64,000 nt of DNA from Enchytraeus crypticus (lineage: Eukaryota; Annelida; Clitellata; Enchytraeida; Enchytraeidae). Under the pieces are notes generated by a model. The model saw only the letters and a program-made list of their open reading frames with translations, was not told the DNA's origin and made no database searches. The position numbers and the translations under genes were made by a program. The stretch lies in the NCBI GenBank assembly GCA_905160935.1, contig CAJHZI010000478.1, forward strand, positions 829,001 to 893,000. The letters run 5' to 3'. Positions 77-52,173 of the stretch are shown piece after piece (position 1 is the first letter of the stretch; the number at the start of each line of letters is the position of its first letter).

Positions 77-3000
77 CTGGTACTGTAAAGAAGGAAGGTC
101 ACCAAAGTAAGTTTTGCTCTTTATTTTATAAAAACTGAAATCATAAAAATGATTTACAATTGTTGAGTTTTTAAAACTGATGCTATCGAATGTCAATGAA
201 TCTTAGCTTCATTATACGTAATCAATGGTTTTAAAGGGGCATAGTTTTATAAAAGTGATTGTAATTATGTTTATTGTAACTGTGCATATTATGTCCATTA
301 TATTATGCGCACTGTTAGCCAGTGTTGCACTGTTAGCCAGTGTTGCACTGTTAGCCAGTGTTGCACTGTTAGCCAGTGACTGTGCTGTCAGGTTTAAATT
401 ACTAAACTAGACATTTATTTAAATAAAAGACAGATCATTCTTATGTATCTATTTCTCTGAATTTGATAAGATATTCCTGCTGTCCAGACCTGCGGTGTGT
501 CTTGATTATTGAAGAATAGAACAACCGTGTACTGCACGTGTAATAAAAGACTACAAAGAACTAAGATCCTAACCAACGTCAGTAAAGGGCATTCAGTTGA
601 GGAGCGCTAGGCTACAGAAATTGCTGAAAAATTTTCTAATCTCGACCCTAGTTAAATTGGGAATCAAAAAGTGATGATGAAGATTACTATTGTATTGACT
701 TCCTAACATATTGTAAGATCTATAGTTTTCTCAGTTATGCTTAAATTTCTTTGCTTGTTTACTTAGATATTTTGCAGTTAATCAGTTGCATAATGATGTA
801 ATATAAATTGATAAACTTAATAATATAATACGACTATTTAGATATTTAATTATTGATCATTTGCATAATTTTTATGTAAATTGATTTGCTTAATATTATG
901 ACCATTTATTTATTTAGCTGTTGAGCAATCTCAGATAAATATGCAGAACTTTTGAAGGCAAAACAATAAAAGTTGCAACAATTTGAAGAAATTTTTAATG
1001 ACTAATGATAATTTAATCATGAATCGTAAAGAGTGCATATTTTACAAGCGACTCTTAAATTGATTGATTGATGGATTGATAATTTATTGATTTATTCCTT
1101 TAACTGATTGATTTGACTGATTGATTGATTGATGCAGCAAACATGCGACTGTGCCTGGGATCAAGAAGAGCTTTTATAATAAGAATGAGACTTGGCAACA
1201 TGCCAATAAAGCCGATGACCTCCTCTCACACTGTGCGGGTGAGACAGCGAAACACACTGGGGCCCTCTAGTGACGGGCAGCAGTACTCAGTGGTACACGT
1301 CACGGGATACGTGAGGAACTGGCCCCCTGCCGGGCACGGTAAGATCTGTCATGATTTTATACAATACTTGTGTACGAGAATACTAAACTGACGTTAACAT
1401 TAACTGTACTATTAGCTTTTACTCGACTGAGATGGTTTCACTAGTGAACTGATTGAGCAGTGGTTGAACTGATTGAGCAGTGGTTGAACTGATTGATGAG
1501 TGGTTGAACTGATTAATGAGTGGTTGAACTTATTGATGAGTGGTTGAACTGATTGATGAGTGGTTGAACTGATTAATGAGTGGTTGAACTGATTGATGAG
1601 CGGTTGAACTGATTGATGAGTGGTTGAACTGATTGATGAGTGGTTGAACTGATTGATGAGTGGTTGAACAGATTGATCAGCGGTTGAACTGATTGATGAG
1701 TGGTTGAATTGACTGATGAGTTGTTGAACTGATTGATGAGCGGTTGAACTGATTGATGAGTGGTTGAACTGATTGATGAGTGGTTGAACTGATTGATGAG
1801 TGGTTGAACTGATTGATGAGTGGTTGAACTGATTGATGGGTGGTTGAACTGATTGATGAGTGGTTGAGCTGATTGATGAGTGGTTGAACTGATTGATGAG
1901 TGGTTGAACTGATTGATGGGTGGTTGAACTGATTGATCAATGGTTGAACTGATTGATGAGTGGTTGAACTGACTGATGAGTGGTTGAACTGACTGATGAG
2001 TGGTTGAACTGATTGAGCAGTGGTTGAACTAAATAGAATGGAATTGGTAGTAAATTTATTTTCAGCAAAGACACAAAATGCATAGATACAGAGACGAAGA
2101 TACAGAGTATCTTATCTTGCTGACTACCGTGATAACTCTGATACTTACTGATTGATACACTCTCTGTGCAGGGGGACCACTGGATAGCGCTGTGGACGAC
2201 GAAACGAGCTCCCCCTCTCACTGTTGTCTCGTTGCTATTGGCAGACTTCAGGTGACGAGCACAGCTAACTGTAGCGACCTCATGGGTCCAGCCTGTAACA
2301 CCGAGTTCATCACGAGACACTCTGTGGATGGAAAGATCACCTTCATCGACCAGAGGTCAGTACAAAACGCTACGTGCGCTTGTTCCCTCTTCTTATTTAT
2401 TTTGTGATTTCTATTTGTTCTCGGAAGACTTGGCTGTACTAACTAGCTCACTTATAGAGTCAATTGGCTGGAGCCAGTGGCGAAGTCGGTAAGGTACTCC
2501 ACCGCGGATCAGATTGTGCGGGGTTCAAATCCTGGGCTCGCCCGTCACTGACATCGCTTTCGAGTGAGGAAACTGACGTTAACCTTAGCTTTATTTTAGC
2601 TTTTTAATTGATAGGCGACTTTTGTTGAAAGGTTGTCTTTGTCGGTTTATTTATTTATATTTTTTGTCTATTAACTCTTTGATCTATGTGTTAAATGTTT
2701 GTATAATGTGTAGTGCAGAGTTCCTACATTGCTGGTTAAATGTATGTATAATGTGTGGTACAGAGTTGCTACATTGCTGGTTAAATGTATGTATAATGTG
2801 TGGTACAGAGTTGCTACATTGCTGGTTAAATGTATGTATAATGTGTGGTACAGGTTGCTACATTGCTGGTTAAACGTTTGTACAATGTGTGGTACAGAGT
2901 TGCTGCATTGCTGGTTAGGTATGTATAATGTATGGTACAGAGTTGCTATATTGCTGGTTAAACGTTTGTATAATGTGTGATACAGAGTTACTACATTGCT

Positions 3001-6000
3001 GGTTAAACGTTTGTACAATGTGTGGTACAGAGTTGCTGTATTGCTGGTTAGGTATGTATAATGTGTGGTACAGAGTTGCTACATTGCTGGTTAAACGTTT
3101 GTATAATGTGTGGTACAGAGTTGCTACATTGCTGGGTTATCAGCCACAGGAGCTGCTGGGTAAAGGTGTGTTCGACTACTATCATCCAGAAGATCAGCCG
3201 CAGATGAAGGAAACCTTTGATCAAGGTCTGATTCTTCGTTTATCTCTCGCATAGTGTATCGCAAATGTATTAAGAAATAGGAAGAAGAGTTGGATAGGAC
3301 ACATTCTAAGGGGGAAGGTCTATTAAAAGTGGTCATAGAGGGTAGAATGGTAGGAAAAAAGAGACAGAGGCAGGCCGAGATTAGGTATGTTAGATGATTT
3401 AAAGACCCACCCATATGTGGAAATAAAGAGAAAAGCGGGAGACAGAGAAGAGTGGAGGCGTTATATACCATGGATCTTCCAGTAGGCAGTGCACTAAGAG
3501 AGAGAGAATGTATCGTAATTAATTGCAGTATGTTTGTATAGGCGGTTCGTCAGTTCTTCCGTTTTGGTTTTATTGTAATTTTAAGCACTATTATATTATA
3601 TTTAAGCGCATATTTTCCTTATAGTTGATAGGCAACGTGTTATAAATTGATAGCTGTTCATTTCTTGAAAAATTATGTAATACTGTCTAGCGTGAACCTT
3701 ATGTCATTTGTGATTTGTGATGTTATACATCTACTATAGATCTATCAATTGATTTTATTACAGTAATTTGGCTGAAAGATCACACATTATCAGTTGATTG
3801 ATTGATTGCTTTATTTATGCTGAAAGATCAGACATTGTCAGGTGATTGATTGCTTTATTGATGCTGAAAGATCAGACATTATCAGGTGATTGATTGATTG
3901 CTTTATTTATGCTGAAAGATCAGACATTATCAGGTGATTGATTGATTGCTTTATTGATGCTGAAAGATCAGACATTATCAGGTGATTGATTGATTGCTTT
4001 ATTTATGCTGAAAGATCAGACATTATCAGGTGATTGATTGATTGCTTTATTTATGCTGAAAGATCAGACATTATCAGGTGATTGATTGATTGCTTCATTT
4101 ATGCTAAAAGATCAGACATTATCAGGTGATCAGTGGTCACTGATACATTGCCGTAGTTTAGCTGATTGTCATGGTGCTATCCTGTAATTGTTTGATATCT
4201 TTATGGAATGAATGATTGATTGATTGTCGTTGTTAAGATTGATTGATCTATCAATAGCTATTGATATATTGCCTAGGCTGAAGGTCTTATGACGATGCTA
4301 TCCTGTGATTAATTAATTGATTGATTGTCGTTGTTAATCTGAAAGGGCAGATGCTATCAGATGATTGATTGATCTATCAGTAGTTTTTGATATATTGCAT
4401 TAGCCTGGCTGAAGGTCTTGCAATATGACGATGTGATTAATTTATTAATTGATTGATTGATTGCAGTTGTTAAGCTGAAAGGTCAGGTGTTATCAGTGAT
4501 GTATCGCTTTCTCTCTAAATCCGGGGAGTGGACTTGGCTGCGCACAAGTGCACTCAGCTTTCTCAATCCATACACTGAGGATGTGGAGTACATCGTCTGC
4601 ACCAACAGCAACACCAAGTAAGTGCTCAATGTCATCTGCTGCCTCTCTCGTAATAGTCATCTGATGTCCCTGACGTTGCCTTATGGCGAGGAACCGGACG
4701 TTAAATTCTTATTGATTGATTGATTGATCTGATAACTGCACGTGTTGTTAAGTGGAGGCTAGACCGTATTGTTGATTGCCTGCTCCAAATTCTGACTTGT
4801 TTGCTACCGTAGTTTTTGTGCTATTTGCTACACGTTAAAGTTGCCGGGTCACTGAAGAAGAGACGAGTAAGCAAGAACTGGGGAAGTTAAAGAGAAATCA
4901 CCCAGAATCCATATTTTTAAAGCTAAAGGTTACTCAAGGTGTGAACAGGGCTTGTCCTTGTGAGAGGCTTAACGTAATGATCGACGGAGTGGTCCTTCAG
5001 TTTCGTGAAAGCTGACTTTCTGTGGTAATGTGTGCCTTGAGCTAACTATTTGCCGAACACGAGTGAGTATTGTGTTGTAGTGTACTGTATTGCATTGATT
5101 TTAGTTTAGTGTATGGTATGGTCCGTAATCAGACCCTTTCTAAAGTGGGATTCAAGCGATGATATGATGATGATGATGGTACTGTATTGTGGTATGTTGT
5201 ATTGTATTTGATTGTGCTGTATTGTGTTGTATTGTATTGTATTTGATTGTGCTGTATTGTATTGTGTTGTATTGTATTGTGCTGTATTGTATGGTAGGCC
5301 TATTGTGTTGTGTTGTATAGTGTTGTATTGTATTTGATTTTGCTGTATTGTATTTTGTTGTATTGTATTGTGCTCTATTGTATTGTATTGTGTTGTATTG
5401 TATTGTATTGTCCTGTATTGTATTGTGCTGTATTGTATTGTGCTGTATTTTACTGTATTGTATTATGCTGTATTTTATTCTATTGTATTGTATTGTATTA
5501 TATTGTGCTGTATTGTATTGTATTGTTTTGTATTTTATTGTAGACAATCGACGCTAGATGGAGTGAGTGATGCAACAGTTCCTATAGTTTACCCCACTGC
5601 ACAGCTTGACAACTCACAGCACCAACAACAACAACACTTCACCGATCTCTATGGCAATATGATTAATCAATCTGTTTGTGGTAAGCGTTTCAGTTAATAA
5701 GTTGATGCATTTCAGTTAGCCTATTAAAACATTTCAGTTAATCTATTAAAACATTTCAGTTAATCTGTTAGAACATTTCAGTTTATCAGTTGAAACATTT
5801 CAGTTAATCAGCTAAAACATTTCAGTTAATCTATCAAAATATTTCAGTTACTCAGTTGAAACATTTCAGTTAATCAGTTAAAGCATTTCAGTTAATCGGT
5901 TGAAGCATTTGATTTAATCGGTTAAAGAAGTTTATTTAATCATGTCAAACTTTTGCGCACTCCAAATGACCTCCCTGAGGTGCTTAATGTAATGAAGTAA

Positions 6001-14265: not shown

Positions 14266-14334
14266 CGTGGAACGTTTCTTAGTATCACGTAAAACGCAGA
14301 CATTTCACAGACTTCCCATAAACACTGAGATTCT

Positions 14335-14672
14335 AATCCTAAGAGGCTCCAGAAGCATAGGTTCTAATCCTAGAGGCTCCAGAAGCAGAGGTTCTAATCC
14401 TAGAGGCTCCAGAAGCAGAGGTTATAATCCTAGAGGCTCCAGAAGCAGAGGTTCTAATCCTAGTGGCTCCAGAGACAGAGGTTCTAATCCTAGAGGCTCC
14501 AGAAGCAGAGTTCTAATCCTGGAGGCTCCAGAAGCAGAGGTTCTAATCCTCGAGGCTCCAGAAGCAGAGGTTCTAATGCTAGAGGCTCCATAAGCAGAGG
14601 TTCTAATTCTAGAGGCTCCAGAAACAGAGGTTCTAATCCTAGAGACTCCAGAAGCAAAGGTTCTAATCCTCA
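14335..14672. repeat. 30-bp minisatellite overlapping the SYCP1 stop codon
   Basis: About eleven units of GAGGCTCCAGAAGCAGAGGT plus TCTAATCCTA. On the minus strand each unit contains GGATTAGAACC, and the SYCP1 stop TAG (14665-14663) sits in the first such motif, so the array is the start of the 3' untranslated region. Confidence 0.93.
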
Positions 14673-23600: not shown

Positions 23601-26600
23601 AGAACCAGAAATAGGTATGTAGCACAATCTATCTAACTGAAAGATGAGGCTATAGATCTAAAGCTCTAAAATGTCAGCCCATCGTCAACTAATTGTCAAT
23701 ACTCAGTAGGATAACAGTAGACAAGATTCACTTTGTTTAGTATTTTTAAACCATAGTTATAGGCATTAATAGGGGATTGACTGATGATATGCTGTGGGAC
23801 AGGGAGGACTGGAGAAAGACTATTCGTATCCCGACCCTGGTTAAACTGTGATTTAAGGGAAGATGATGATGATGACTAGCATTTCATAGCAGAATTTAGT
23901 TACTACATATTATCAATTCAGAGCAGAACTCAATGCCATAATACATTGAGTTAAGCTAAATGCTACTATATAGCACTTCGCGTTACGACTATGTAGCTCT
24001 AACCTCTACAGCAGCAGAGCTCTCCTCTCGCTCACTCCTGAGCTCTGAGCTGACTGAGCTCTGGCGCGCTGTCTGCTCCTCTAGAGCCTCAGTGGTTGCC
24101 TTCAGCTCTGCAGTCACTCTCTTCAACTCCTCCTCCAGTCTCAATGATTCAGCCTCCTTGCTCACCAAATCACTGCACAGTTCTTCCATCTGATCAAATA
24201 AGACATGCAAGCGTAGCAGATCAAATGTCGATAGTAATAATATGTATAATAATAATACAGATATGGTTATTAATTTTAAAATAATAGTCGTTATTTTTAT
24301 TTTTGTAAGTATATAAATGCTATTGGATTAGTACATAACTGCACTAAATAAACTAAACACACAACTACTAATCAGATCAAAGAGGTTGTTCAACATACTG
24401 AGGAGACAATTACAATCTATCAATTCTCAAATACCAAATTAATCACAATTCTGGTTTTCTATAGATCTTCTTCTTTCCATATTTTTCCATAGCATTTACA
24501 TCTTCAATTAACACATATACACATAATTATCACTTGCATTTTAATAAAAATTCTTTCCAGAATTTCATTTAGAATTTTGTCACTTCTGCTAATTATATAA
24601 TTATCAGTTTTGCATACTTCTCCAATGCCGCAGTTAAAATCCTCCAAAAATTACACATAAGAGAAATAAAATACGGCAGACCTTTTTAACCGTCTCCACT
24701 ACATACGTCTCATGCATCTCCATCCGTGTCTTTAATTCCTCTCCTGATACTCGCACTGGATAAAATGTCAAATAACCGCAAGAGAATTAAAAGCATAAAA
24801 GCAAAAGCTAAGGTTAACGTCAGTTTAATCTGCAAAAATTTATCTATATCTTGAAAGCAAGATTAATTATATATGGGAATAATAAGAACGGCATCAAGTT
24901 CTAACTTATTTATTCTAAAAATATTTTACCAAACGATTACTACAACTAAAGATCGATTACCTTGGTAAGGAAGACGAGAACAAAAATGTCAATCAATACA
25001 CAAATTATATAATTATTTAAGAGTAACAAAGAAAGTCTAGACATTCAAAACTTTGCAGAGCACACTGTGCAAAATGCAGTCCTTAAACCTTTCAGACAAT
25101 ATTCATAAATTACAGAAATCCGTTAAGCCTATAGTTTTATCTATTTTAAATTCACATAACATGCATACGTTTCACTCGCTTATAGAATTCTTATATTCTG
25201 GCCTCATGACTATCATGCCATTGAGGAGTCTTCTAAATAGAGAGACTGAGATTGAGGAAACACTGTGTCAATAAAAAGTTGGATTTCAACAATTCCTATC
25301 AAGATAATTTCCACAGAAATAACAGTATACAATAAGTATATTATACAGTATTTTACGTATACAAACCTTGCTCCTTCAGCTCATTCTTTGCACTCTCGGT
25401 CGAAGCTTCAAATTCCTCAAATTTAGTCACAAACTCCTGAAAACACAACAAATACCTAACTGTTGCTATTTAGCATTGACAGCGTCTCTTTATTAGAGAC
25501 TGATTGATTGATTAAAGAGAAAGAGTCTCCTTAATCTGATTAAATTAACTAGTTAAATTAAAAGTCTATTATTCTTAGAGAAATTGAAACTGGGATAGAT
25601 TAAAAAAATATCTTATTTGACACATACTTATTCATTTAACGAAAATAAAGTATTTTTATTAGTCACAACTGATGACTGATTTAAAGAGAAACAACATAGA
25701 AACCTCGAGACGTTTCGTCAATTCTTCACTCTCGTTCCTCCACTCCAAGCATTCCTCGCTGTAAAAACAAACAACAACCTCCAAACTCAACGTCAGCAAC
25801 GTCAGAGCTACAAGTCAGTCCCTTCCTTTCCTTGTAGTCATATATAGTCTTCCAAAAACTTACGTTGGAACTTCAAATATTAGAGTCAGAATTGCAAATA
25901 TATTGGCTAGAGAAAGTGGCGACGTCGGTAAGATACTCGACCGCGGATCAGTTTGTGCGGGGTTCAAATCCTGGGCTCTCCCATCACTGACATCGCTTTT
26001 GAGTGAGCAAACTGAAGTTAGCCTTAACTTTGTCAGAACTGCAAATATAAAGCGAAGCCTTCTATTTTTATTTTACTCAACACTAACGATTCCAAAATTA
26101 TACAAATCATTTGCCCAAACCTATGGAGATCTGACAAAAAATTGTGATGTGGAAAAATGTCGCACAAAATTTATGGTTGAAAAACAGATAATGCTTCAAA
26201 GGTACCAGAACAACATGAAATCCAGTGAAAGTGAATTAATTCTTAAATCACTCTAGTGATGTACAGCTGAAACAATTCCACGCCAAGTAAGTAGAATATA
26301 AGAAAATACATAAATATATTCCAAAATGTGGGCCACTAAGTGACCACTCATAACTGAGGTTAGAATGCAACTTTTGAAAGTTATCTGATCCGGGGAGGAG
26401 ATACGGTGTAATGGCTAGAGATTTGTCTCAGAAGCTAGTGGCATGGGCTCCAAGCTCCGGTCAATCAACAACTAATGGATATCCCACACGGCCCCTGGAA
26501 GGTTAATCGAGTATAAAAGATTGCTGCTATTTAATGCAATAAACAGCAAAGACATGATAAATCATAGAAAGGATTCGTTATAGCTTGAGCTTTTGTCTAT

Positions 26601-29600: not shown

Positions 29601-32600
29601 AAATAGAGTCATAAAATAAATAGAGCCATAAGCTTAACAACTGATTACAAGTCATATTTTTATAATCAGTTTCGCGGCATGACGGACACATCAGTGAAGG
29701 GTGAGCCCTGGGATATGAACCCAGCTCAGACTGCTCAGTAAAACTCAATGATACATTGCGTCAGCTGCAGTCACGTTCTCTCATGGAATTGTTATAATCA
29801 GAAAAAAATATTCAAAATTAATTTAAGTTTCAACTTAGTTTTAAATCAGCCTTATATTTTCATCATGATCAAACTCAGTAGTCACAAAGTAGGCTTTATC
29901 AGACAAACATTGTCAAGTCATTTGTCAGCTTAAATTTAATACAGTATTAAAAGCTTCATAACTCGTAAGATATTAAATGATGCTAGTTTAAACTATAATA
30001 TATGTGTTTGCACTTTTATACCATTAGTTATATTAATTCCATGTTTGTATCGTAATTATGCTTGAATGTTCATATATTTATATTGTATTTATTTGCGGTT
30101 GTAAGAATGTCTGATGCACTCTATTTTGATAAATATCACCTCAGTACAGATTGTCCGGATTTCCGACTCAGTCCATTTAAGAGGTCTACTTTTAGTTTGG
30201 CTCATTGCATGGGTTATAGCTGCAACTGAGGATATAACATAACATATAGGTAGTCCCCTATCTGTTATATTAGAAGTATTAATGACTGATAGATGTATAT
30301 AACCTCTTGTTTGAGATCGTTGAGTTTTTCTGACAACAGACTCTGCATAGACTCAGCCTGCTGTCTCTCCTCTTCCACTGTTTAAACATATGCACACGTT
30401 TACTAGCTCACTCATCCATTGTTTTAATTAACGTCCGTTTCTTCATCTCATAATGATGTCGCAATCATAACTTCAAATGATCAGGACATCCATAATATCC
30501 ATCATATATCAGTGATATAGCTAAATCATAAATGTTTACTAAATATTATAACATGACTTTATGGCTCATTACTCACAAAACTAATCAATGTTAATGGGAC
30601 TAGAGAGAAGTAAGAAGCTAACATCTTAGAATTCTACAAAAGTCGATCAGTACAACAACAATACGATTAGAGTGCTACTGTAATCCAAGACAACATTGAG
30701 GACGGACTACCATGACTCAACAAAATATAATAAATTCTGTAAACTCTAAGTGTTTTTCAAAGTAACTTTATTTCACCGTAATTCTATTCGGCAGAATAAT
30801 ATACTCTTTCACTATTTCTATGATTTGGAAAAATGTACTATGTAGGATGTTTAAAATACTTCAATCTCAGCTAATGTTAATTTGTCAGAACAGCAAGCAG
30901 CCATCCAATTAAGAACATAAATCTACTACATAGTAGCAAGCTTCTAACAGCATCTAGTATTAATCTAGTATTCACCAACAACATCAAACGTAACTATAAT
31001 TCTTTTGAAAGGAAGAAGTATTTATATAATTGATCGATTAACTCATTGCTTCTTTGTATATATCTAATTACTGCTATGTATGTTTCTGCTATTCTTAAAA
31101 AATTTCTGCCAAACGAAACAAACAGTAAAAATTTAGAAATTTGTACGTTTCTGAGCAAGCTTTGTTCTCTCTTCTTGGGTAGCCAGTGATAGCTGGTCAA
31201 AACTTCCCGCCAGTTCCTATACAACAATCATCAATCCAAGGTCTCTCAGCCAGTTTCAATCTGTCTCATGAATGAACTACAGTAATTTTAGACTCATTTT
31301 ATAAGCATGTAATGCAATCACTACACTGCTATACATTTACAATGAAACAACTTTCTCAGATATAAATTTAAACTATCTTACCTATCGTCTTTTTATCAAC
31401 AAACAGGCAACAATTAAAATCTTTCTTTCATTTCTCTTCAATATCTTTTTCAAATTGTTTTGAGTAAAGTAAAAAGCAAAGCTAAGGTTAACGTCAGTTT
31501 CCTCACTCGAAAGCGATGTCATTGACGAGCGAGCCCAGGATTTGAACCCTCATCAACTGATCCGCGGTCGAGTATCTTACCGACTTCACCACAGGCTCCA
31601 GCCAGTGAATCGACAGGAGTGACATCAGACGTCTGGACTTCATCTTTATCTTTTTGCCGAGGAAATTGACATAAAATATTCATTATTAAATTACTAATAA
31701 TTTTACTACATGCTTTAGACTTAAACCAGATGTACTTCAATTGCTACCATACAAAAGGGACTCAATCTCCAAAGATGATATCAACTTCATAAAGATTAGA
31801 GTAAAACACAGCACAACCTCACACTGCTTTACATGGTCCTTTTCTTTGGCTTCCAGATCGTTTCTCTCAGCATTACCTGCAACATTCAGCATCGAGGTCT
31901 TTCAATATTTCAAATATAATCAGTTTTCGTATTTATCACATAATCATACAATATTATAGCATCATATAATCATCACATAGTTTCATATTATAGGTTATAA
32001 TATGATGCTATAATTAATAGCACATGAAAAGAAAGGCAGATAATATTAATATGTGGCGGATTTATATGCCATGGATCTGCTACTAAACAGTACCTTAAGA
32101 GTGAGAGAGATACAGCACTATAGATACAGTAATTCTAAAATTCCTAACAAATAAAATTTTTCTTTATCAAGCAGTAAACTTAAGAGTGCCTCAATAACTG
32201 AGGACTTGCCCATTATTACTGTAAGTCTTACACTGATGGATGAGCTCCTCAGCTTTCACAGCAAAACCTCTCACTTCATTGAACATGTGCTGCAGAGACT
32301 TCAGTCTATACAAAATAACAGAACGACTGTAGTCAGCCTACAGAGTGCTCAGAGATATGAAAGCTTCCAATTCCTAGAACGTATCTCACATTGCCAGACT
32401 CATAAAAGATGAGCATTTACGTCTTATGAATCACATGCTTATCGCACTCAGATTCTGTTGTACAAGATGTACAACAGAAGCTTATTGGATAACAGTTTCT
32501 TTTAACGACAGTTATTTAGATAACAGTGATCACAACAGAATAACTATCATTTTGAGAAAAGCAAAACTATAAGTCGTAATTTTATGAGCAATTACTTTGT

Positions 32601-43302: not shown

Positions 43303-46300
43303 ATGTCGGGTTTGGATTCCAATCCATTTGCTGATCCGCACGCCACGAATCCATTTGCGGTTTGTATTTCGACACTTAAATACGAATAATAAAATAATTA
43401 AAAGGAGAGCGGCTATAATTGGCCTACCAGCTTTATCTTGATTAACTATTTGTTTTAAAATTGTCTTTTCATACAAATGAAAGGACAATTTGACGGCGGG
43501 ATTAGCGCACTTGGTTTAGTTGCACGTCAATTATCGAAGTTAAGCTGCATCGATCTCGGTTAGTACTTTGTGGGTGACCACCTTGGAAGACTGAGTGTTG
43601 GTAAAATCTTAGGAATGAAAAATCCCAGAGCGATGGAAGGTTATTATTAAATCCGCGCCGGCTGCAATTGATGTGCTATCAAAAGGCAACAATTACTAAT
43701 TACCATGGAGTGGAAGGAGGAAATGTGTCTTAAACAAGCAACTGTGCTTCCCGACTCAGTGTACCATTATGTTATGTTATGTTATGTTATGTTATGTAGA
43801 TCGCTCCTATAATTTATTCTTCACTAATTATTATTATTTACTTATTTATTACTAAATAATTATAATCTACAATTTCTATTATTTCTCTGGTTGTTTGATA
43901 TTGCTATAGTAATAAAACTGTCCTTATTGTTATCGAATTTATAATCTCTCTTCATCGAAAGTCTCGATCATTGATGAACTGTTTAAGAACTGGCAGTGAA
44001 AGAATATGATTGTTAAACCCTTATTATTATTATTATTATTATTATTATAGTTATTATTATTATTATTAATGCTACTAAATCTATGTCCACTTAAAGTTAA
44101 ATGTTGCTGATTGCAGCAGGGGGTGACATTGTCCTGACTTTTATTATTATTATTAATATTGGTTAAAGGATGACTCAGTGCAACAGGCCAGCAAGCAGGG
44201 CTATGGGGTGGAGCCTGTGGAAGAATTTAACCCATTCGCTGAGGACCAGTTTGCTCCAAGGGTTTGATTTATACTCCTATGAAATAATAGAATTTATTAA
44301 ATTCTAAAATATTGTTTGATTTAGGTTCTTGTTAAGTAGATATACAGAAATAGATGATGTTGTTGTTTCATTTGAATGTCCTAATCGGTAGCCTGCTTTT
44401 CTATGTCCTAATCGGTAGCCTGCTTTTCTATGTCCTAATCGGTAGCCTGCTTTTCTATGTCCTAATCGGTAGTCTGCTTTTCTATTAAGCGGGAGGTCAT
44501 AAGTTCAAATCCCAGCAAAGCCTAGCTTTGTTTAAGGCTGCGTTGCTATTGCTAGCATTATAGTTCTTAATTTGGCATCACGAACACGAGATACTAATTG
44601 ATATAGAAATGGAGTTTTCCAAATATCTGTACTAGTTGAGGCAAAAAGATAAGGCAATTTTTAGGGCTATTTTGAGGAAAGATGAGGACTATTTTGTCAG
44701 CAACTGAATCCTATATACATGTGTAAACAGTTTGACAGGTATTATTAATTAATTAATTATTATTAATTACTATTATTAATTAATTTATTATTATTAATTA
44801 CTATTATTAATTAATTTATTATTATTAATTACTATTATTAATTAATTTATTATTATTAATTACTATTATTAATTAATTTATTATTATTAATTACTATTAT
44901 TAATTAATTAATTATTATTAATTACTATTATTAATTAATTGCCAAACCTCTTAAAAATAAAGCAGTCAATATTCATTACACTGAATTAGTTAACATTTTA
45001 TGCATTTCAGTAAATTCATTTTGTAATTCATGTAGCTTTTGGAGAATCTCTCAGCAATCAAAATCTCTGTCATTATTAGTAATTACTCTTTTTTCTTGTA
45101 TTTCTTGAAAGTTTATCTCCATTGCTGGTGATACTAATTATAGTATATTCTATTTACATTTAAAATTTATTTTAAAAATTGAAAAAAATTGAAACACGGA
45201 AGCATCGTATTCAGCCGTACTGCCGACTTCGTCATTGGCTTATCTGCCACTTAATTTATTAATTAAATAATAAATTCTTTCATCATCATCATCATCATCA
45301 TTGTCCCTTGAATCTCAGTTTAACTAGGGTCGGAATACGAATAGATTGTCTCAAATACTATATTAAATGATAAATTCTTTATTCATAAATTAATTTATAT
45401 GTTGTGTATTTTGTTCTCTTAAAGCCCGCATCATCGCAGCCGGCCGTACTGCAGACTTCACCGCCGGCGTACACCCCTGAGCCGCAGCCGAGCGTAGCAG
45501 CTACCGAGTACCTGCAGCAGCGGCAGGATGAGCTGGAGCGTAAAGCCGCTGAGCTCGACAGGAGAGAGCAAGCTATGCAGCAGACCCTGCTGGTGGCAGG
45601 TCCGTCATGATATAACATTTTACCTTCTACATTCATCATCGTCATCATCTCTCTCTCTCTTAGTGCACTGCCTACTGGCAGGTCCATGGTATATAACGCC
45701 TCAAAACTTCTCTGTCTTCCGCCTTTCTATTCATTTCCACATACGAGTGGATCTTTAAATCATCTAACATACCTAATCTCGGCCTGCCCCTGCCTCCTTT
45801 TCCTTCCATTCTACCTTCTATGATCTCTTTTAATAGATCTTCCCCCCTTAGAATGTGTCCTATCCAAGTCTTCTTCCTATTTCTTAATACATTTATCATC
45901 ATCATCATCTTCCCTTAAATCCCAGTTTAACCAGGGTCAGGATACGAATAGACTTTCTCCAGGCCTCCCTGATATAGAATTAACATTTTGCCTTCTACAT
46001 TATAATAATAATGATGGTGATAATGATAGCAGTAATTATGATACTAAGCAATAATAGTATTTATAATTATATGCCCTGCGCTTATTGATTGAGTCATTTT
46101 ATTATATCCAAGTTTTTTACACCAGGGGTAAAAATTAAATTTTAAAAATAATAATATGAACATGGCATAGCTACTGTGTGAGGATCATGTTATATAATAG
46201 TGAAGGTTTACTGTTGTATTCTCATGCAAGAATGTTGTCAGAGACGTCCCCCATCTCATGTCACTATGAATCGTCTCGCCAAAATGATTTGAAACGCATG

Positions 46301-49300
46301 TGCTGAAGAGAGAAAAAGATCCTAAACGTTGTAGGCCCAGTGTTCAAAAACCAGTCAGATAAGAAAATTTGAATCTTTGGTGGTATATTATATTGTGGCA
46401 CCGTTTAAGATCTTTCTCTTTAGCACATGTTTTTTCAGATCATTTGGGGTGAATCGATTTGTAGTGACAAGTGATGGGGGGATCGTCCGTGACATCATCT
46501 GTGTATGAGGAAACTGCCGTTAAAACTTAATTATTTTTTTATTATTATATAGATACATGTATATATGCTATATCTGTACTAATCCTTGTTTGCTATTGTA
46601 GGAAGATTTAATAACTTTCCTCCGCTGCCTGCCAGATTACCCATAAGGCCTTGCTTCTATCAGGACATTTCCCTCGACATTCCCGTCCATTTCCAGAGGC
46701 TGGTTAAGCTCCACTTCATCTTTTGGCTTGGTACGTATTCTGAATTCTTTTTAGATATTCGTGGAAATTATATTTGTGGACTTGATGCAGAACCTTTCAC
46801 TTCGTATCAGTTCATGTAAATGTTTTTTTATCGGCTTGATGCAAAGCTCTATTGAATGTTTTTACTGAAGGATAGCTCTTTTGATTAAAAATTCTGTAAG
46901 GTCGTTGTAGATATTCTAAAGTTGTAAGAATAATTTAGATATCTTAGATGATAAATATATCTTAATTATGATGAATTATAATTAATTAATTATTATAATT
47001 TTAATAATGATGAAACAAATATTTCTCATAAATTTAATAACGATAAAGATGTCATTGATTTAAAAAAATCTAAGATGAAAATATTTATGATTAAAAATGT
47101 GGCTTCTGTTTTCTAAGAAGCAGAGATGAAAAATTTTATATATTAATGATGGCAATTAAATTAGATATAAATTAAACTGTGATTAAGATGGGAATTCAAG
47201 GAAATGCTATTTGTTAAGTAATATGATTGTGTATGGTTTATTTTAATTGACTTCTAAATTAAAACTTAAGAGTTCCCCACCAGAGTTCCCAAATTTTACG
47301 GTAATTTGAATAAATCCTCTTTAGCTCCACCATTGATCATAATCATAGCCTGAGGGAAATTGTAATTGATAGATAGAAACATATTTGATTAAATGTAGTG
47401 GTCATTACTCAGGTTGTATTCTCATCTTAGCTGCAGTGTGGAGAATTTCTTATACAAGCTTGCGCCCAATCTCTGTCTCTTAGGTATTTTAGAATTCGAA
47501 TGAGTGCATTTTATGGCTGGAGCCAATGACTATGTCAGTATGATATCCGACCGCAGATCAGTATGTGTAGGTTCAAATTCTCTACTCGCCTGTCACTGAT
47601 ATCGCTTTCGGGAGATGATAGTGACATTAACAAAGACTTTACAGCTTTTTATTTTTGTATAGCATTGAATTAATAAGGTTCGTTGTCTACTTCTGTACAT
47701 TATAGGAGTACTCTCAGGCGATGTCCCTGACATCATCCTTGGATGAGGAAACGGACGTTAAACCTTTATTATTATTATTATTATTGCTATTCTCTATTAA
47801 TTTTGTGTGCTATGTGTTGCAGTCTATGTAGCAGTGCTCTTTATCAACGTGTGCGTTTCGTTAGCGTTCTTCTGCGTCAGCGAAGTGTACGACATTGATA
47901 ACTTCTCTGGTACAACCTTTGGCTTATCAATTCTCTATCTTGTTCTTTGGACTCCCCTATCGTACGTTTGCTGGTTCCGGGCTGTCTACAATGCCTTCAG
48001 GTATGCTTTATTTCTATATTTTGGATTAATGGTCAAAATAAACGACATTTTTGGCAGCTGGATAAAGTATATGAAATATATATTTATACTGTATTAAATC
48101 AAAAAGAACAGTAAAGAGATAGTGCAGCAGTACTTCCTAACAATACCTGTGAACACACTGGACGGAAAAAACAAAATGAACGCATTCTGCAAGTTGTGAT
48201 TCCTTCTGCGAAACCTGCAGTGGTGTACTTGTTATAGTTGTTGCTTTATTGTGTGGATCTGCTACTCCTCAATCAACATTATCATCATCTTCCCTTTAAT
48301 CCCAGTTTAACTGGGGTCGGGATACGAATGGACATTCTCCACACATCCCTGGACATACCATATCAAAATATCTTCCATTCATTCTAGAAAATGTTGTGAA
48401 AATTTCTGGAGCCTAGGCGCTCACTAACCGAATGCCCTCTCTGACGTTAGTTTGGATCTTAGTGCTTTAGTCGCCTTCTACAACACGTGCAGTCACCGGT
48501 TGGTCTTTTGGTCTCTGCTGCCCTCCAATCAAACCTTAAAATATTTTCTGTACATATTTAAAATAACTCTGTACTCTAATAGAAGATTAACCAATAAACC
48601 TGATGATAACTAATTTTAGAATGCCATAGAATGCTAAACCCGTTTGTCTTATGCTATTTTATAGGATGGACAGTTCTTTTTTCTTCTTCCTTTACTTCAT
48701 TGTATTCGCATTGCAGTTCTGTGCCAATGTGGTGCAGGCCATTGGAATAAATGGATCCGGCTCTGTGTGAGTATCTACTTTCATGACGTATCAACTCGTA
48801 ATTGTAAATTCTTAATTAGTGATTCTTTATTGTAATTAGACGTCAAGTTAAACTTATAATTTAAACGACATTTGGTTTACTTCTCACAAGCTGAGTGAGT
48901 GAGGCTGACTAAGATTATATCGTATGTTAGATCCGCGGTCGAGTATCTTACCGACTTCGCCACTGGCTGGAGCCAGTAGCGAAGTCGGTAAGATACTCGA
49001 CCGCGGATCAGTTGATGCGGGTTCAAATCCTGGGCTTGCCCATCACTGACATCGCTTTCGAGTGAGGAAACTGACGTTAACCTTAGCTTTACTTTAGCTT
49101 TTTTTAGCTGCGAGTGTTTTTTAAGTTATTTCAATTTTTATACAAATAGTTTTATTTCACCATTCATATGACAAGATAAAAAACAAACTACAGTTACAGT
49201 CATAGGTAACCACATAAATAGATATTGAATATTGAGGCACAAACATACACTCAAGCAAGCAACTAAAAATATTAACTAAAAGTTAATTAATGATTTCCAG

Positions 49301-52173
49301 CAAAAACTTTCAAAGTTTCCAATCATCTCTCTAACTGGAAGCTTTCTGGAAAGATACAATTATGGCTATTATTATTTACACAGTATTTACTAACCAATGA
49401 CAACAATTCTACATTCATACAATTAAAGTATTTACAATAAGTATTTCCTGAAGGCTGATGTACATAACTGCACTTCAAAAATTATATCTTCTATTTGCAA
49501 TTTTTAATTCAATCAGAAATTAGCCTGAGAAGTATTGACATTGCTTAATTGAATTCGTATCGAATGTGTGAAATTGCTTGCTATGCAAGTGAGGAAATGC
49601 AATTTCAAAGCCCTGAATCATAGATTTTGACATTTTATTGTACTCAGACCATATAGCAGAATAGGAACGCAATACGACTCAAATAGTGAAATTACTACAG
49701 AAGGTGTAGAAGTGCCGTCAATTTTGCTTGTTTTTGTTGTATTGTTGCTTTATTGTCTTTTGTTTTTATAATTGAATGCTATTGTTGTATGTTGTTGTGT
49801 TTGTTTTGTTCTATTTATTTTAGTTTGTTGTTCCTATTGCAGTTTATTGTTGTTGTAATTGTTTTTGTCATTCTGGCTGTTGTTTTGTGTGTTGTTGTGT
49901 TGATGCTCATATTGTTGTAGTTGTGGAAGCTGTGGTGTGTTGTGTTGTGTGTTGTTTATGGAATTGCCATTGTCGTTGTGGTTGCTGAGTTTATGTTGCT
50001 TATTTGATTTATTATTCTATTTTATTTAGATTTTTGTATTGGTGCATGTTGTAGTTTGTTTTTGTTAGCACATTTTTGTATTTTGTTGTAATGTTTTGTT
50101 CTGTATTGTTTTGTTTGATGTTTGTTGCTATGGTAGTTGTATTGCTATTATAGTGTATTGTTGTTTATGTTGTTGTTGCTGTTGCTCTGTTTGTCCCTGA
50201 CCTTGCCTAATGGCAAGGAACCGGACTTTAAATTCTTATTGATTAATTGATTGATGTTGTTGTTGATGTTGTTGTTTATGTTGTTGTTGTTGCACTGTTC
50301 ATTGTATGTAGTGGATATATCAGCGGCCTGACCACAGTGAACACCAGGGGTGATCATAGGTCCAACATTGTGCCCATGGGCATTGTCATGGTCATCGTCG
50401 GGGTATTCTTCACAATACTCGCTGTTGCCTGTGCGTTTCTTCTCTTGCAAGTTAGCAACCTCTAGTCTCTTAAACAATATTCTCTCCATTTTACTAAAGA
50501 TGTACCTGCAAGCTAGATACTCAAATAACAGCCTTGAGCCACATTGATTGTTGTGTCCAAAAAATAGACCTACCGTTAACTGCACCTAAAGAGGTGACTG
50601 AGCAAGAACTGAGGAAGGCCACGAGAAACTACCTCAGAAGCCATATTATTCCAAAGATATTGGCTACATTAAGGTACGGATGAGACGTAGCCTTTTTTGA
50701 AGGGCTTAACTCGATGATCTATTGATTGCTCTTTGTGGAGCGTGAAAGCAAACTCTGAGCATGAGTATGTAACTTGGATCAACCACTTGGCAGCACTATA
50801 GAGACAGAGAGAGAGATATGCATAGTAAGATGTGTGCAACTGTGGTTCAGAGATAGGAAGAATTAGAAAGACTTAAAGTAACTGATAAAAAATAGGCAGG
50901 GGCAGGCCGAGATTAGGTATGTTAGATGATTTAAAGACCCATTCATATGTGAAAATGAAGAGGAAGGCGGAAGACAGAGAAGAGTGGAGGCGTTATGTAC
51001 CATGGACCTCCCAGTAGGCAGTGCACTAAGAGAGAGAAAGTAACTGATATTGTTACCGACAAACTCTGTCTCTGATCTACTGTTTATATATTGTAGGTAT
51101 ATTGGGTCATGAAGCTCAATTAGAGTATAATTATGTTATAATCATATTCTAATCCTGCTTTATTAATGATAATTGAAAGGTCTACATAAGAAGTATATCA
51201 TCAACTGAATTCTACCTCAGGTTTTTCATTGGTTTTGATAAAAACGATTATAGCAAAATGGCATATTTAATAGCAGTTATTGCTATTGTTTTTCATGTTA
51301 TTATTATTATAATTATTATCATTATTGTTATTCTTTGTATTGGTATTATCAAATGTTATTATATTTTTATTATTACTATTATTATTATTATTATTATGTT
51401 GTTATTGTTATTATTATTACTGTTATTTTAATTAAAGTTATTGTAAATATTATCATTATTGTTATTCTTATTAGTATTAATAATAATATTATCATCATTA
51501 TTGTTATTCTTATTACTATTACCAATATTATCATTATTGTTATTCTTGTTACTATTACCATTATCATCATTATTGTTATTCTTGTTACTATTACCATTAT
51601 CATCATTATTGTTATTCTTGTTACTATTACCATTATCATCATTATTGTTATTCTTGTTACTATTACCATTATCATCATATTGTTATTATTACTATTACCA
51701 TTATCATCATATTGTTATTATTACTATTACCATTATCATCATATTGTTATTATTACTATTACCATTATCATCATATTGTTATTATTACTATTACCATTAT
51801 CATCATATTGTTATTATTACTATTATCATTATCGTAGTTATTGTTATTCTTGTTATCATTACTATAATCATTATCATCATCATTATTATTCTTTATTACT
51901 ATTATCATTATCAAAATTTTGTTAGTATTGTTGCTATCACCATTATCATCATTATCATCATCATTGTTGTTGTTGCTTCAGGTTTTTCGTCTGTTCCGCT
52001 CTGGAGGAGGTAACTTTGCGAAGGCTCAGGAGGAGTTCGCCCAGGGGGTCGTGTCTAACCGGACTGTGCAGCAGGCGGCAGGGAACCTGGCCGCCTCGGC
52101 TGCACAGGGGGCCGCCCAGGGCGCCATGCAGGGGACCTTCAGTGGCGGCAGCGCCAGGGACCCCCGATACTAA
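43303..52173 (+). CDS. SCAMP: Secretory carrier-associated membrane protein (eight exons)
   Basis: SCAMPs are four-pass proteins of recycling and secretory vesicles. Exons are 43303-43359, 44169-44261, 45425-45599, 46602-46730, 47823-48000, 48665-48766, 50312-50450 and 51982-52173; the sum is 1065 nt, 354 aa, with all phases agreeing. The N terminus carries three NPF motifs (two in [19 protein letters not shown], one in FNPFAED), which bind EH-domain proteins. A short coiled coil follows ([20 protein letters not shown]). Next comes the family signature [19 protein letters not shown], then membrane segments near residues 143-167, 178-200, 213-238 and 268-290. Between the second and third lies [11 protein letters not shown], the conserved cytosolic E-peptide. 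The tail [12 protein letters not shown]...NRTVQQAA is also typical. The start is the only ATG that fits the NPF exon. The paralogue number cannot be assigned. Confidence 0.96.
43494..43800 (+). mobile_element. 5S rRNA-derived SINE with (TTATG)n tail
   Basis: The head contains GAAGTTAAGCTGCATCGATC, TCGGTTAGTACTTTGTGGGT and GACCACCTTGGAAGACTGAG, which follow the internal promoter of 5S rRNA (GTTAAGC, GGTTAGTAC, GGGTGACC, TGGGAA). About 180 bp of unrelated body and five or six TTATG units follow. This layout is the SINE3 class. It sits in the first SCAMP intron and is not a functional 5S gene because the 5' half and 3' stem are altered. Confidence 0.85.
44370..44560 (+). mobile_element. Tandem 27-bp repeat plus tRNA-like SINE fragment
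   Basis: ATGTCCTAATCGGTAGCCTG plus CTTTTCT is repeated four times. The last copy continues into GGAGGTCATAAGTTCAAATC and CCAGCAAAGCC, a B-box-like region. So the A-box portion of a tRNA-like element has been amplified. Confidence 0.65.
44728..44945. repeat. 34-bp AT-only tandem repeat
   Basis: ATTAATTAATTTATTATTAT plus TAATTACTATTATT, six to seven copies, in a SCAMP intron. Confidence 0.9.
45280..45360 (-). mobile_element. LINE tail fragment, family C
   Basis: An ATC run then CTTGAATCTCAGTTTAACTA and GGGTCGGAATACGAATAGAT. Confidence 0.65.
45622..45975 (-). mobile_element. LINE 3' ends, family A then family C, minus strand
   Basis: Reversed, 45900-45672 encodes [20 protein letters not shown] and continues [17 protein letters not shown] to [13 protein letters not shown], the best preserved piece of family A. 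At 45895-45975 an ATC run and the GGGTCAGGATACGAATAGAC segment of family C abut it. Confidence 0.75.
46203..46532. mobile_element. Hairpin (inverted-repeat) element, about 330 bp
   Basis: The left arm GTATTCTCATGCAAGAATGT...GAGACGTCCCCCATCTCATG and right arm (reverse complement of CACATGTTTTTTCAGATCAT ... GATGAGGAAACTG-type end) pair over about 125 bases around an 80-bp loop. Partial arms lie at 9452-9545, 30428-30470, 47700-47765 and 57925-57990, so it is a dispersed family. Confidence 0.7.
47512..47650 (+). mobile_element. Diverged SINE family 1 copy
   Basis: GGCTGGAGCCAATGACTATG, ATATCCGACCGCAGATCAGT and GATATCGCTTTCGGGA identify it. Confidence 0.72.
48280..48350 (-). mobile_element. LINE tail fragment, family C
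   Basis: ATCATCATCTTCCCTTTAAT and CTGGGGTCGGGATACGAATG. Confidence 0.65.
48930..49112 (+). mobile_element. SINE family 1 with an inverted head, forming a palindrome
   Basis: ATCCGCGGTCGAGTATCTTA and CCGACTTCGCCACTGGCTGG are followed at once by the reverse complement (CCAGTAGCGAAGTCGGTAAG ...), after which a full + strand copy continues to GACGTTAACCTTAGCTTTAC. The palindrome arms are about 45 bp. Confidence 0.85.
49720..50280. repeat. (TTG)n-rich region in a SCAMP intron
   Basis: Irregular TTGTTGTTG, TTGTGTTGTG and TTTTGTTTTG runs continue up to the acceptor at 50311, interrupted at 50190-50255 by a dispersed repeat end. Confidence 0.8.
50580..50800 (+). repeat. Dispersed repeat, partner at 4838-5055
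   Basis: GAGCAAGAACTGAGGAAGGC, CTCAGAAGCCATATTATTCC and GAAGGGCTTAACTCGATGAT match the order at 4838-5055. Confidence 0.5.
50845..51040 (+). mobile_element. LINE 3'-end fragment, family A
   Basis: CAGGGGCAGGCCGAGATTAG, GTATGTTAGATGATTTAAAG and GGACCTCCCAGTAGGCAGTG match 3257-3514 closely. Confidence 0.75.
51295..51980. repeat. TTATTA/ATCATC microsatellite block, last SCAMP intron
   Basis: Repeated TATTACCATTATCATCAT units (period about 36 in the middle) run to the acceptor at 51981. All long hydrophobic open frames here are low-complexity artefacts. Confidence 0.93.

Follow-up and report, generated by a model that had tools for sequence, protein, structure and literature searches.

The DNA that we analyzed (here, the window) is a 64-kb stretch of the Enchytraeus crypticus genome. 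It carries ARNT exons, and the boundary between one intron and the PAS-B exon is spanned by a tandem array in which the acceptor and the exon start are repeated.

2172..2355 (+), upstream ARNT exon, ending ...KITFIDQ-AG in phase 2, with donor gtcagt at 2356 (exon chain, ARNT homology)
2465..2605 (+), member of a dispersed tRNA-like repeat family, in the intron that holds the array and upstream of it (self-blastn, related copies in the window)
2690..3135 (+), minisatellite of ten units of 43 to 45 bp (repeat finding, unit alignment)
3117..3118 (+), real PAS-B 3' splice site (AG), as judged by gap-free ARNT homology across the junction
3119..3225 (+), ARNT PAS-B exon, ending ...ETFDQ, with donor gtctga at 3226 (exon chain, ARNT homology)

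Ten acceptor copies at the PAS-B exon of ARNT

Tandem Repeats Finder reported an array at 2690-3135 of the 64-kb window (period, 45; 10.0 copies; 89% matches), and a repeat search of the window recovered an exon-like 16-mer in ten in-register copies spaced 43 to 45 bp apart. Each unit comprises 28 intron nucleotides ending in CAG followed by 17 exon nucleotides, and the units are arranged head to tail with lengths of 45, 44, or 43 bp. The ten acceptors have AG ends at 2718, 2763, 2808, 2853, 2897, 2940, 2985, 3030, 3073, and 3118; nine are decoys, all with an intact CAG (9/9), and the tenth is the acceptor of the PAS-B exon itself. When exons 2172-2355 and 3119-3225 were joined, the two listed alignments of the product to ARNT ran gap-free across the junction (best E value, 1e-83). 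On this homology, 3118 is the real 3' splice site of the PAS-B exon. An earlier note on this DNA had described a 3' splice site turned into a minisatellite, with units made of a CAG acceptor plus about 17 exon bases and nine decoys ahead of a true acceptor at 3118. The array, its intron-plus-exon unit, the list of AGs, and the ARNT homology agree with that description, apart from the unit length, which had been given as 38 to 45 bp and was measured as 43 to 45 bp.

Across the 64-kb window, four probe words from the array unit had 4, 5, 6, and 9 occurrences, every one of them within the array. The array copies are not uniform; they differ mutually at several sites and carry indels of their own. 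Two three-unit blocks (2854-2986 and 2987-3119) are 96% identical, and such near identity shows a recent block expansion. Given this expansion, the nine intact decoy AGs are not independent survivors, and we draw no evidence of selection from them. The array is known from one match in a single assembly. No relatives were found among phages or bacterial and viral contigs, and Rfam returned nothing at gathering scores. ARAGORN reported no tRNA for the tRNA-like repeat at 2465..2605, which is presumably a SINE.

Splice signals and reading frames of the decoys

The nine decoys and two candidate branch-point words are as follows.

2671..2675 (+), TTAAC, upstream of all copies, the highest-scoring branch-point-like word in the vicinity of the array, with its A 44 nt before the end of the first decoy AG (simple yUnAy score, 4.56)
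2717..2718 (+), decoy acceptor 1 (AG); insert of 400 nt, stop
2762..2763 (+), decoy acceptor 2 (AG); insert of 355 nt, stop
2807..2808 (+), decoy acceptor 3 (AG); insert of 310 nt, stop
2852..2853 (+), decoy acceptor 4 (AG); 1-nt deletion after CAG; insert of 265 nt, stop
2896..2897 (+), decoy acceptor 5 (AG); insert of 221 nt, stop
2939..2940 (+), decoy acceptor 6 (AG); lacks TTAAA at -24; insert of 178 nt, stop
2984..2985 (+), decoy acceptor 7 (AG); insert of 133 nt, stop
3029..3030 (+), decoy acceptor 8 (AG); insert of 88 nt, stop
3072..3073 (+), decoy acceptor 9 (AG); sole in-frame decoy, 15-residue insert; lacks TTAAA at -24
3091..3095 (+), TTAAA in the last unit, 24 nt ahead of the real AG, a candidate branch point, putatively used (branch-word score)

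The pyrimidine fraction of the 16-nt stretch scored was 0.44 at each of the ten acceptors, and with ten acceptor modules in a row, the spliceosome must keep choosing the exon-adjacent copy. The claim that the last of ten nearly equal sites has to be picked thus holds for local signals. Branch-point words were scored with a simple yUnAy consensus. A weak branch-like word lies at the right distance for 8 of the 10 acceptors, and by this simple score the words belonging to 2718 (TTAAC, 4.56), 3030 (2.76), and 2763 (2.68) exceed that of 3118 (1.55), so that a strict rule of the first AG after the branch point would pick a decoy. The last AG ahead of 3118 starts at 3074.

The earlier note had also held that the copied exon start keeps the reading frame. 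This is true for one decoy of nine (3073), which adds 45 nt (i.e., 15 residues) without a stop in the insert; the other eight reach a stop, and the frame is therefore not preserved in general. Units 5 and 8, which at 43 bp are 2 bp shorter, each contain a latent 21-nt microexon.

2898..2918 (+), latent microexon of unit 5, acag/...GGTTAG/gtatgt, reading VAALLVR in frame (duplex with the U1 5' end, -6.2 kcal/mol; no stop)
3031..3051 (+), latent microexon of unit 8, reading VAVLLVR in frame (donor, -6.2 kcal/mol; no stop)

Boundary copies at other exons

Minisatellite-like duplications of intron-exon boundaries have been described in lancelets as "mirages," and RT-PCR suggested that they do not interfere with splicing (PMC3087553). 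In the E. crypticus ARNT gene, 4 of the 18 intron-adjacent exon edges recur in the intron that they adjoin. When exon tiles were compared with the flanking introns of ARNT (348 comparisons), 13 scores were at least 28; these form four clusters, each of which lies at or extends to an exon edge adjoining its own intron. The controls reached maxima of 22 (edges against nonadjacent introns; n = 144) and 17 (reverse-complement edges; n = 18). The acceptor edge of ARNT intron 4 (score, 22) was not counted as a mirage; other introns reach 20 to 22, although none of 100 shuffles reaches its score. One further duplication lies downstream of the PAS-B exon.

3740..4365 (+), second, older boundary duplication, in which the acceptor region of the exon at 4467 recurs as diverged copies, among them a 48-bp array (3771-4130) and a further copy (4308-4365); AG mostly lost (repeat finding, exon-edge comparison)
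4467..4617 (+), ARNT exon whose 5' edge is copied into the preceding intron (exon chain, ARNT homology, edge copies)

Only 1 of the 10 boundary-spanning copies in this older array has kept the AG, and one of the ten is gapped there.

Beyond ARNT but in the same genome, we sampled 21 of 137 kinase matches. Boundary-touching copies were present at 6 of 21 kinase acceptors, one of them with only 5 exon bases, and at 1 of 21 kinase donors; in 5 of the 21 exons, the copies took in 27 to 54 exon bases along with intron bases. Six further decoys, in frame, are present at a nicotinic-receptor-like exon. The candidates L049 upstream (46), L039 downstream (34), and L044 downstream (31) were not counted as mirages, as only intron letters match. 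Pooling of the ARNT and kinase edges gave copies at 9 of 30 acceptors versus 2 of 30 donors (Fisher p = 0.042, a post hoc value for which edges of the same gene are not independent; p = 0.10 if L039 downstream is counted as a donor), and we treat the excess of acceptors over donors as a lead only. Arrays of period at least 7 make up approximately 12% of 294 kb that include the window (10 kb read as N), and several ARNT introns contain arrays without exon letters.

Known systems, rival explanations, and meaning

The ARNT array combines four defining features of mirages (i.e., a tandem array, a boundary-spanning unit, duplicated splice signals, and occurrence in several genes). In the lancelet reports, mirage units also span the splice boundary, affect both 3' (BflGb6) and 5' (BflGb9) boundaries as in E. 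crypticus, and keep AG/GT in many copies. Two haplotypes of BflGb6 carry 6 and 3 units, with 81 to 100% identity (PMC3087553 and PMC3902484). The host of the ARNT array is an annelid rather than a cephalochordate, and its ten copies measure 43 to 45 bp, compared with units of 150 to 160 bp in BflGb6 and 10 to 72 bp in Adh3, according to the same accounts. Haplotype length differences and RT-PCR are on record for the lancelet mirages, whereas the ARNT array is known from one genome assembly.

Other systems are similar in part. The human IFI6 (6-16) minisatellite is likewise an exon-boundary repeat that multiplies a splice site, but it supplies donors, while the ARNT units supply acceptors; two of its downstream units are used as donors, giving three mRNA species (PMC4526556, on Turri et al. 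1995). An IFI6-type donor minisatellite does not fit here, as only units 5 and 8 of the nine carry the -6.2 kcal/mol donor. Internal tandem repeats in human segmental duplications also have minisatellite-size units at exon-intron boundaries; the report on them gives 27 intron modifications after manual inspection, from 2,008 gene loci, with alternative-transcript support for 66% (PMC2812944). The earthworm metallothionein genes are those of an annelid too, with intronic minisatellites and copies of the fourth exon absent from the final transcript, but the available text does not describe these as a splice-boundary duplication (PMC12783039). In a cluster of mutually exclusive exons, every copy would form a full exon, bounded by an acceptor and a donor; 7 of the 9 decoy units lack the TTAG/GTATGT donor. 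NAGNAG acceptors are a few nucleotides apart, and the 43- to 45-nt spacing in ARNT differs from that of such short tandem acceptors.

Two rival explanations give the copies a role in the transcript. Partial use of decoy 3073 would yield an ARNT isoform with 15 residues at the start of PAS-B, tuned by array length. The decoy's open insert and the resemblance of the 20 nt ahead of its AG to those of 3118 favor this, but the preceding unit (43 bp, TTAGG) lacks the TTAAA found at -24 before 3118, the stops at the remaining eight decoys mean that the frame is not generally kept, and the insert is absent in both ARNT alignments listed; we consider this isoform unlikely. Alternatively, units 5 and 8 might at times be included as 7-residue microexons, so that the array acts as a microexon nursery. 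Such recruitment is the proposed intron-gain model for lancelet mirages (PMC3087553). The 21-nt segments keep the frame without a stop, and by U1 pairing, the donor TTAG/GTATGT (-6.2) outranks four of the six real donors that were scored (-8.2, -8.0, -6.1, -5.1, -5.1, and -4.3 kcal/mol). However, units 5 and 8 occupy matching positions in the two near-identical blocks and thus probably reflect one event. An exon of 21 nt is also very short for exon recognition, and we regard inclusion as highly improbable.

The remaining rivals concern the origin of the array. A minisatellite of the ordinary intronic kind, unrelated to splice sites, might have extended into the exon by chance, and the array-rich surroundings and the exon-free arrays of other ARNT introns are consistent with this. 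In the comparisons made, however, the high-scoring ARNT copies were confined to clusters at exon edges adjoining the intron concerned, and 5 of the 21 kinase exons had exon bases copied along with intron bases; a chance overlap thus appears very unlikely. Misassembled repeats of a single boundary, or a haplotype artefact, are barely credible. Long and short reads were combined in the published assembly (PMC8460440), and near-identical blocks can be miscounted, but the copies differ at several positions, with distinct indels, and more diverged boundary copies are present at other exons. An assembler could, nevertheless, have miscounted the near-identical copies.

The array is very probably a boundary-spanning mirage minisatellite produced by tandem duplication at the DNA level and tolerated, we propose, because the exon-proximal site is used. 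A short tandem duplication would have crossed the PAS-B intron-exon junction, and slippage or unequal exchange, partly as three-unit blocks, may have extended it to ten copies, with new copies added on the intron side and each repeating the acceptor and exon start. Intact protein would result only if the spliceosome takes the exon-proximal copy at 3118, which is probably the site normally used; exon definition involving the 3226 donor is the probable mechanism. Decoy use would mostly be removed as premature-stop RNA, and array length may vary between worms.

What is new here is a mirage in an annelid and further ones within one genome; the kind is already known in lancelets, whose genes are the subject of the mirage papers that we found. 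A wider reading, for which our confidence is below even, is that E. crypticus undergoes genome-wide, ongoing splice-boundary duplication, at 3' sites more than at 5' sites, with about one-quarter of internal exons lying behind one or more decoys. Reliable exon-proximal choice would make this tolerable, and the arrays would form a reservoir of in-frame segments and microexons. Any model of splicing has to account for the choice of a single AG from many candidates, and junction counts across ten near-identical acceptor modules in one intron of a conserved gene would directly test scanning, branch-point, and exon-definition rules. The presence of annelid mirages at 9 of the 30 sampled acceptors suggests that in some animal genomes splice sites go on being copied, and such copying has been proposed as a source of new introns and exons.

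ARNT gene and the array at its PAS-B exon

Chaining by GT-AG rules and homology yielded ten ARNT exons in one open frame on the plus strand, four in the 10 kb directly upstream of the window (L003) and six in the window, whose start falls within the gene. The fragment translated from the window matched PDB ARNT chains (E, 1e-83) and Pfam PAS domains. The array lies at the 3' splice site of the PAS-B exon (3119-3225), in the following intron of the exon chain.

2356-3118, plus strand: ARNT intron carrying the array

Tandem Repeats Finder placed the array at 2690-3135 (period, 45; 10.0 copies), and the aligned units were 45, 44, or 43 bp long. In each unit, 28 intron bases with CAG at their 3' end precede 17 exon bases (AGTTGCTACATTGCTGG or a close variant), and the true boundary is the final copy. 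The splice-site minisatellite described in the earlier note is real and well defined, and the true acceptor that it placed at 3118 was borne out by gap-free ARNT homology at the junction (3118/3119). Identity between blocks 2854-2986 and 2987-3119 reaches 96%, indicating that the array grew partly by three-unit steps. Four probe words from the unit had no occurrence elsewhere in the 64 kb. When the array was used as a query against the 524-Mb genome, its own locus was the sole match in a search that skipped very common words. The window has a GC content of 34.4%; the published E. crypticus genome has 525.2 Mb and 35.4% GC (PMC8460440). On the 15,205-bp mitochondrial contig (C802), cox1 was identified by Pfam and the other long frames were assigned by eye to mitochondrial proteins; these frames share one strand with 23 of 26 ARAGORN tRNA calls. 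Its gene order is consistent with the Lumbricus type and leaves a gap between trnH and nad5, and the published mtDNA of E. crypticus (Annelida, Clitellata), also 15,205 bp, shows Lumbricus order with noncoding sequence between these two genes (PMC8460440).

Other repeats were observed in the window. About ten copies of a tRNA-like dispersed repeat share the word GGTTCAAATCC, and we take this repeat to be probably a SINE. A second dispersed repeat (90 to 91% identity among the copies below) is perhaps, as a guess, the 3' end of a LINE. A 30-bp array (11.5 copies) is partly open on both strands.

2465-2605, 25902-26031, 31478-31604, 48964-49103, and others: tRNA-like repeat
3260-3530, 45650-45894, 50887-51037: second dispersed repeat
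14327-14670: 30-bp array

Acceptor choice and predicted decoy products

Besides the real acceptor, whose AG ends at 3118, the array holds nine copied acceptor AGs (decoys). Over the 16-base stretch scored ahead of the AG, the pyrimidine fraction was 0.44 at all ten acceptors. Branch-point words were ranked by a simple yUnAy score. The best word near the array, TTAAC (2671-2675), lies upstream of every copy. The weaker TTAAA lies 24 nt ahead of 8 of the 10 AGs, 3118 among them, and is absent at that position before AGs 2940 and 3073, both of which are downstream of 43-bp units. Decoys 2718, 3030, and 2763 outscored 3118 on the branch-point word, and the AG that begins at 3074 is the last to precede the real acceptor AG. 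Acceptor 3118 probably uses the TTAAA at 3091-3095 and may prevail via exon definition. A first-AG rule would prefer decoy 2718, whereas exon definition would favor 3118, making this locus a good test case.

Each of the ten acceptors was joined to the upstream exon by script. Only one of the nine decoys, 3073, kept the frame in these predicted products, inserting 15 residues; the remaining eight met a stop 14 to 91 residues past the start of FIDQ. The proposal that the copied exon start keeps the frame holds at most decoys over the initial residues and fails for the product, since eight of nine reach a stop. In units 5 and 8, a spacer shorter by 2 bp gives rise to TTAG/GTATGT, which pairs with the U1 5' end at -6.2 kcal/mol, inside the span of -4.3 to -8.2 measured for six real donors. 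These units have 21 nt from acceptor to donor, in frame and stop-free, and constitute latent microexons.

Boundary copies elsewhere in ARNT and in other genes

We compared the 30-nt edges of the ten ARNT exons with the adjoining introns, using 100 shuffles for each. Clear copies were present at 4 of 18 edges (scores, 32 to 40; none of 100 shuffles as high), as follows.

L003:9408-9771, 364-bp intron upstream of the window: copies of the PAS-A exon donor edge
Same 364-bp intron (L003:9408-9771): copies of the acceptor edge of the exon after the PAS-A exon
2690-3135, plus strand: copies of the PAS-B exon acceptor edge (the array)
Intron before the exon at 4467: copies of the acceptor edge of that exon

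At the PAS-A donor (L003:9408-9520), about 45 exon nucleotides plus gtgag recur downstream of the real donor, followed by small cacag/gtg repeats. The other end of this intron (L003:9590-9771) holds a diverged, stop-containing copy of the acceptor and about 46 exon nucleotides, 139 nt upstream of the real acceptor. Ten boundary-spanning copies were found for the exon at 4467, with the AG intact in one; these explain the separate 48-bp array at 3771-4130 as an old, decayed relative. In a tiling control (348 comparisons), high scores were confined to the four edge clusters. One more edge, the acceptor of intron 4, scored 22, above its 100 shuffles and no higher than other introns, and was not counted.

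Large arrays devoid of exon letters occur in other ARNT introns (1445-2030, 5179-5542, and 5688-5926), two of them lying no more than 10 bp from a splice site (acceptor 5543 and donor 5681). (ATTG)n tracts, which reiterate the branch-point-like word TTGAT, reach the AG at several intron ends (window 1059-1137 and 4440-4466; kinase loci L044 and L045). One idea is that they may seed slippage.

For a genome rate, 21 of 137 protein-kinase matches were picked from a table blind to sequence. The first eight were hand-picked for short open frames (81 to 188 residues), and thirteen came from another twenty rows whose open frames did not exceed 130 residues, leaving seven of the twenty and lower such rows outside the sample. 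Upstream boundary-touching copies were present at six exons (L035, L039, L044, L045, L048, and L032, the last including just 5 exon bases), and donor copies were present at one (L032). The AG was intact in one of two copies at L035, in both copies at each of L044 and L045, and in the aligned copy at L048; at L039 it was TG. Of the other fifteen upstream comparisons, 14 scored ≤22; L049 scored 46 and was rejected as a boundary copy, its match covering intron letters only. Downstream matches at L039 (34) and L044 (31) were rejected as donor copies on the same grounds; with L032 also set aside, the remaining eighteen all scored ≤22. Reverse-complement controls scored ≤23 in 42 of 42. Boundary copies were likely missed because HMM ends differ from exact exon ends. 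Pooling ARNT and kinase exons gave copies at 9 acceptors and 2 donors among 30 of each.

A further case, noticed by eye, was for that reason excluded from the rates.

L010:2565-2842 (C385:905565-905842), minus strand: nicotinic-receptor-like exon, about 12.6 kb beyond the window

The gene name is our assumption from recognition by eye. The intron end is made of 45-bp units (gacacag/GTAAC...), with six decoy acceptors, all in frame without a stop. Every cacag/gtaac could also be read as a donor.

Relation to minisatellite mirages

By its anatomy, the ARNT array belongs to the mirages, the lancelet term for minisatellite-like duplications of an intron-exon boundary, a kind that is known but rarely described. 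The papers found on minisatellite mirages in amphioxus dealt with lancelet genes; among the matches listed, the word mirages was also used in a paper on maize. Literature on annelid minisatellites at splice sites offered nothing closer than earthworm metallothionein genes, an absence that is weak evidence because few subscription papers were covered. The consulted text on these genes describes intronic minisatellites and exon copies missing from the final transcript, and splice-site arrays were not found in it (PMC12783039). Within the reach of these searches, three features are new: the phylum, an acceptor module present in ten copies, and the apparent frequency. In E. crypticus, the ARNT array is part of something wider than one array.
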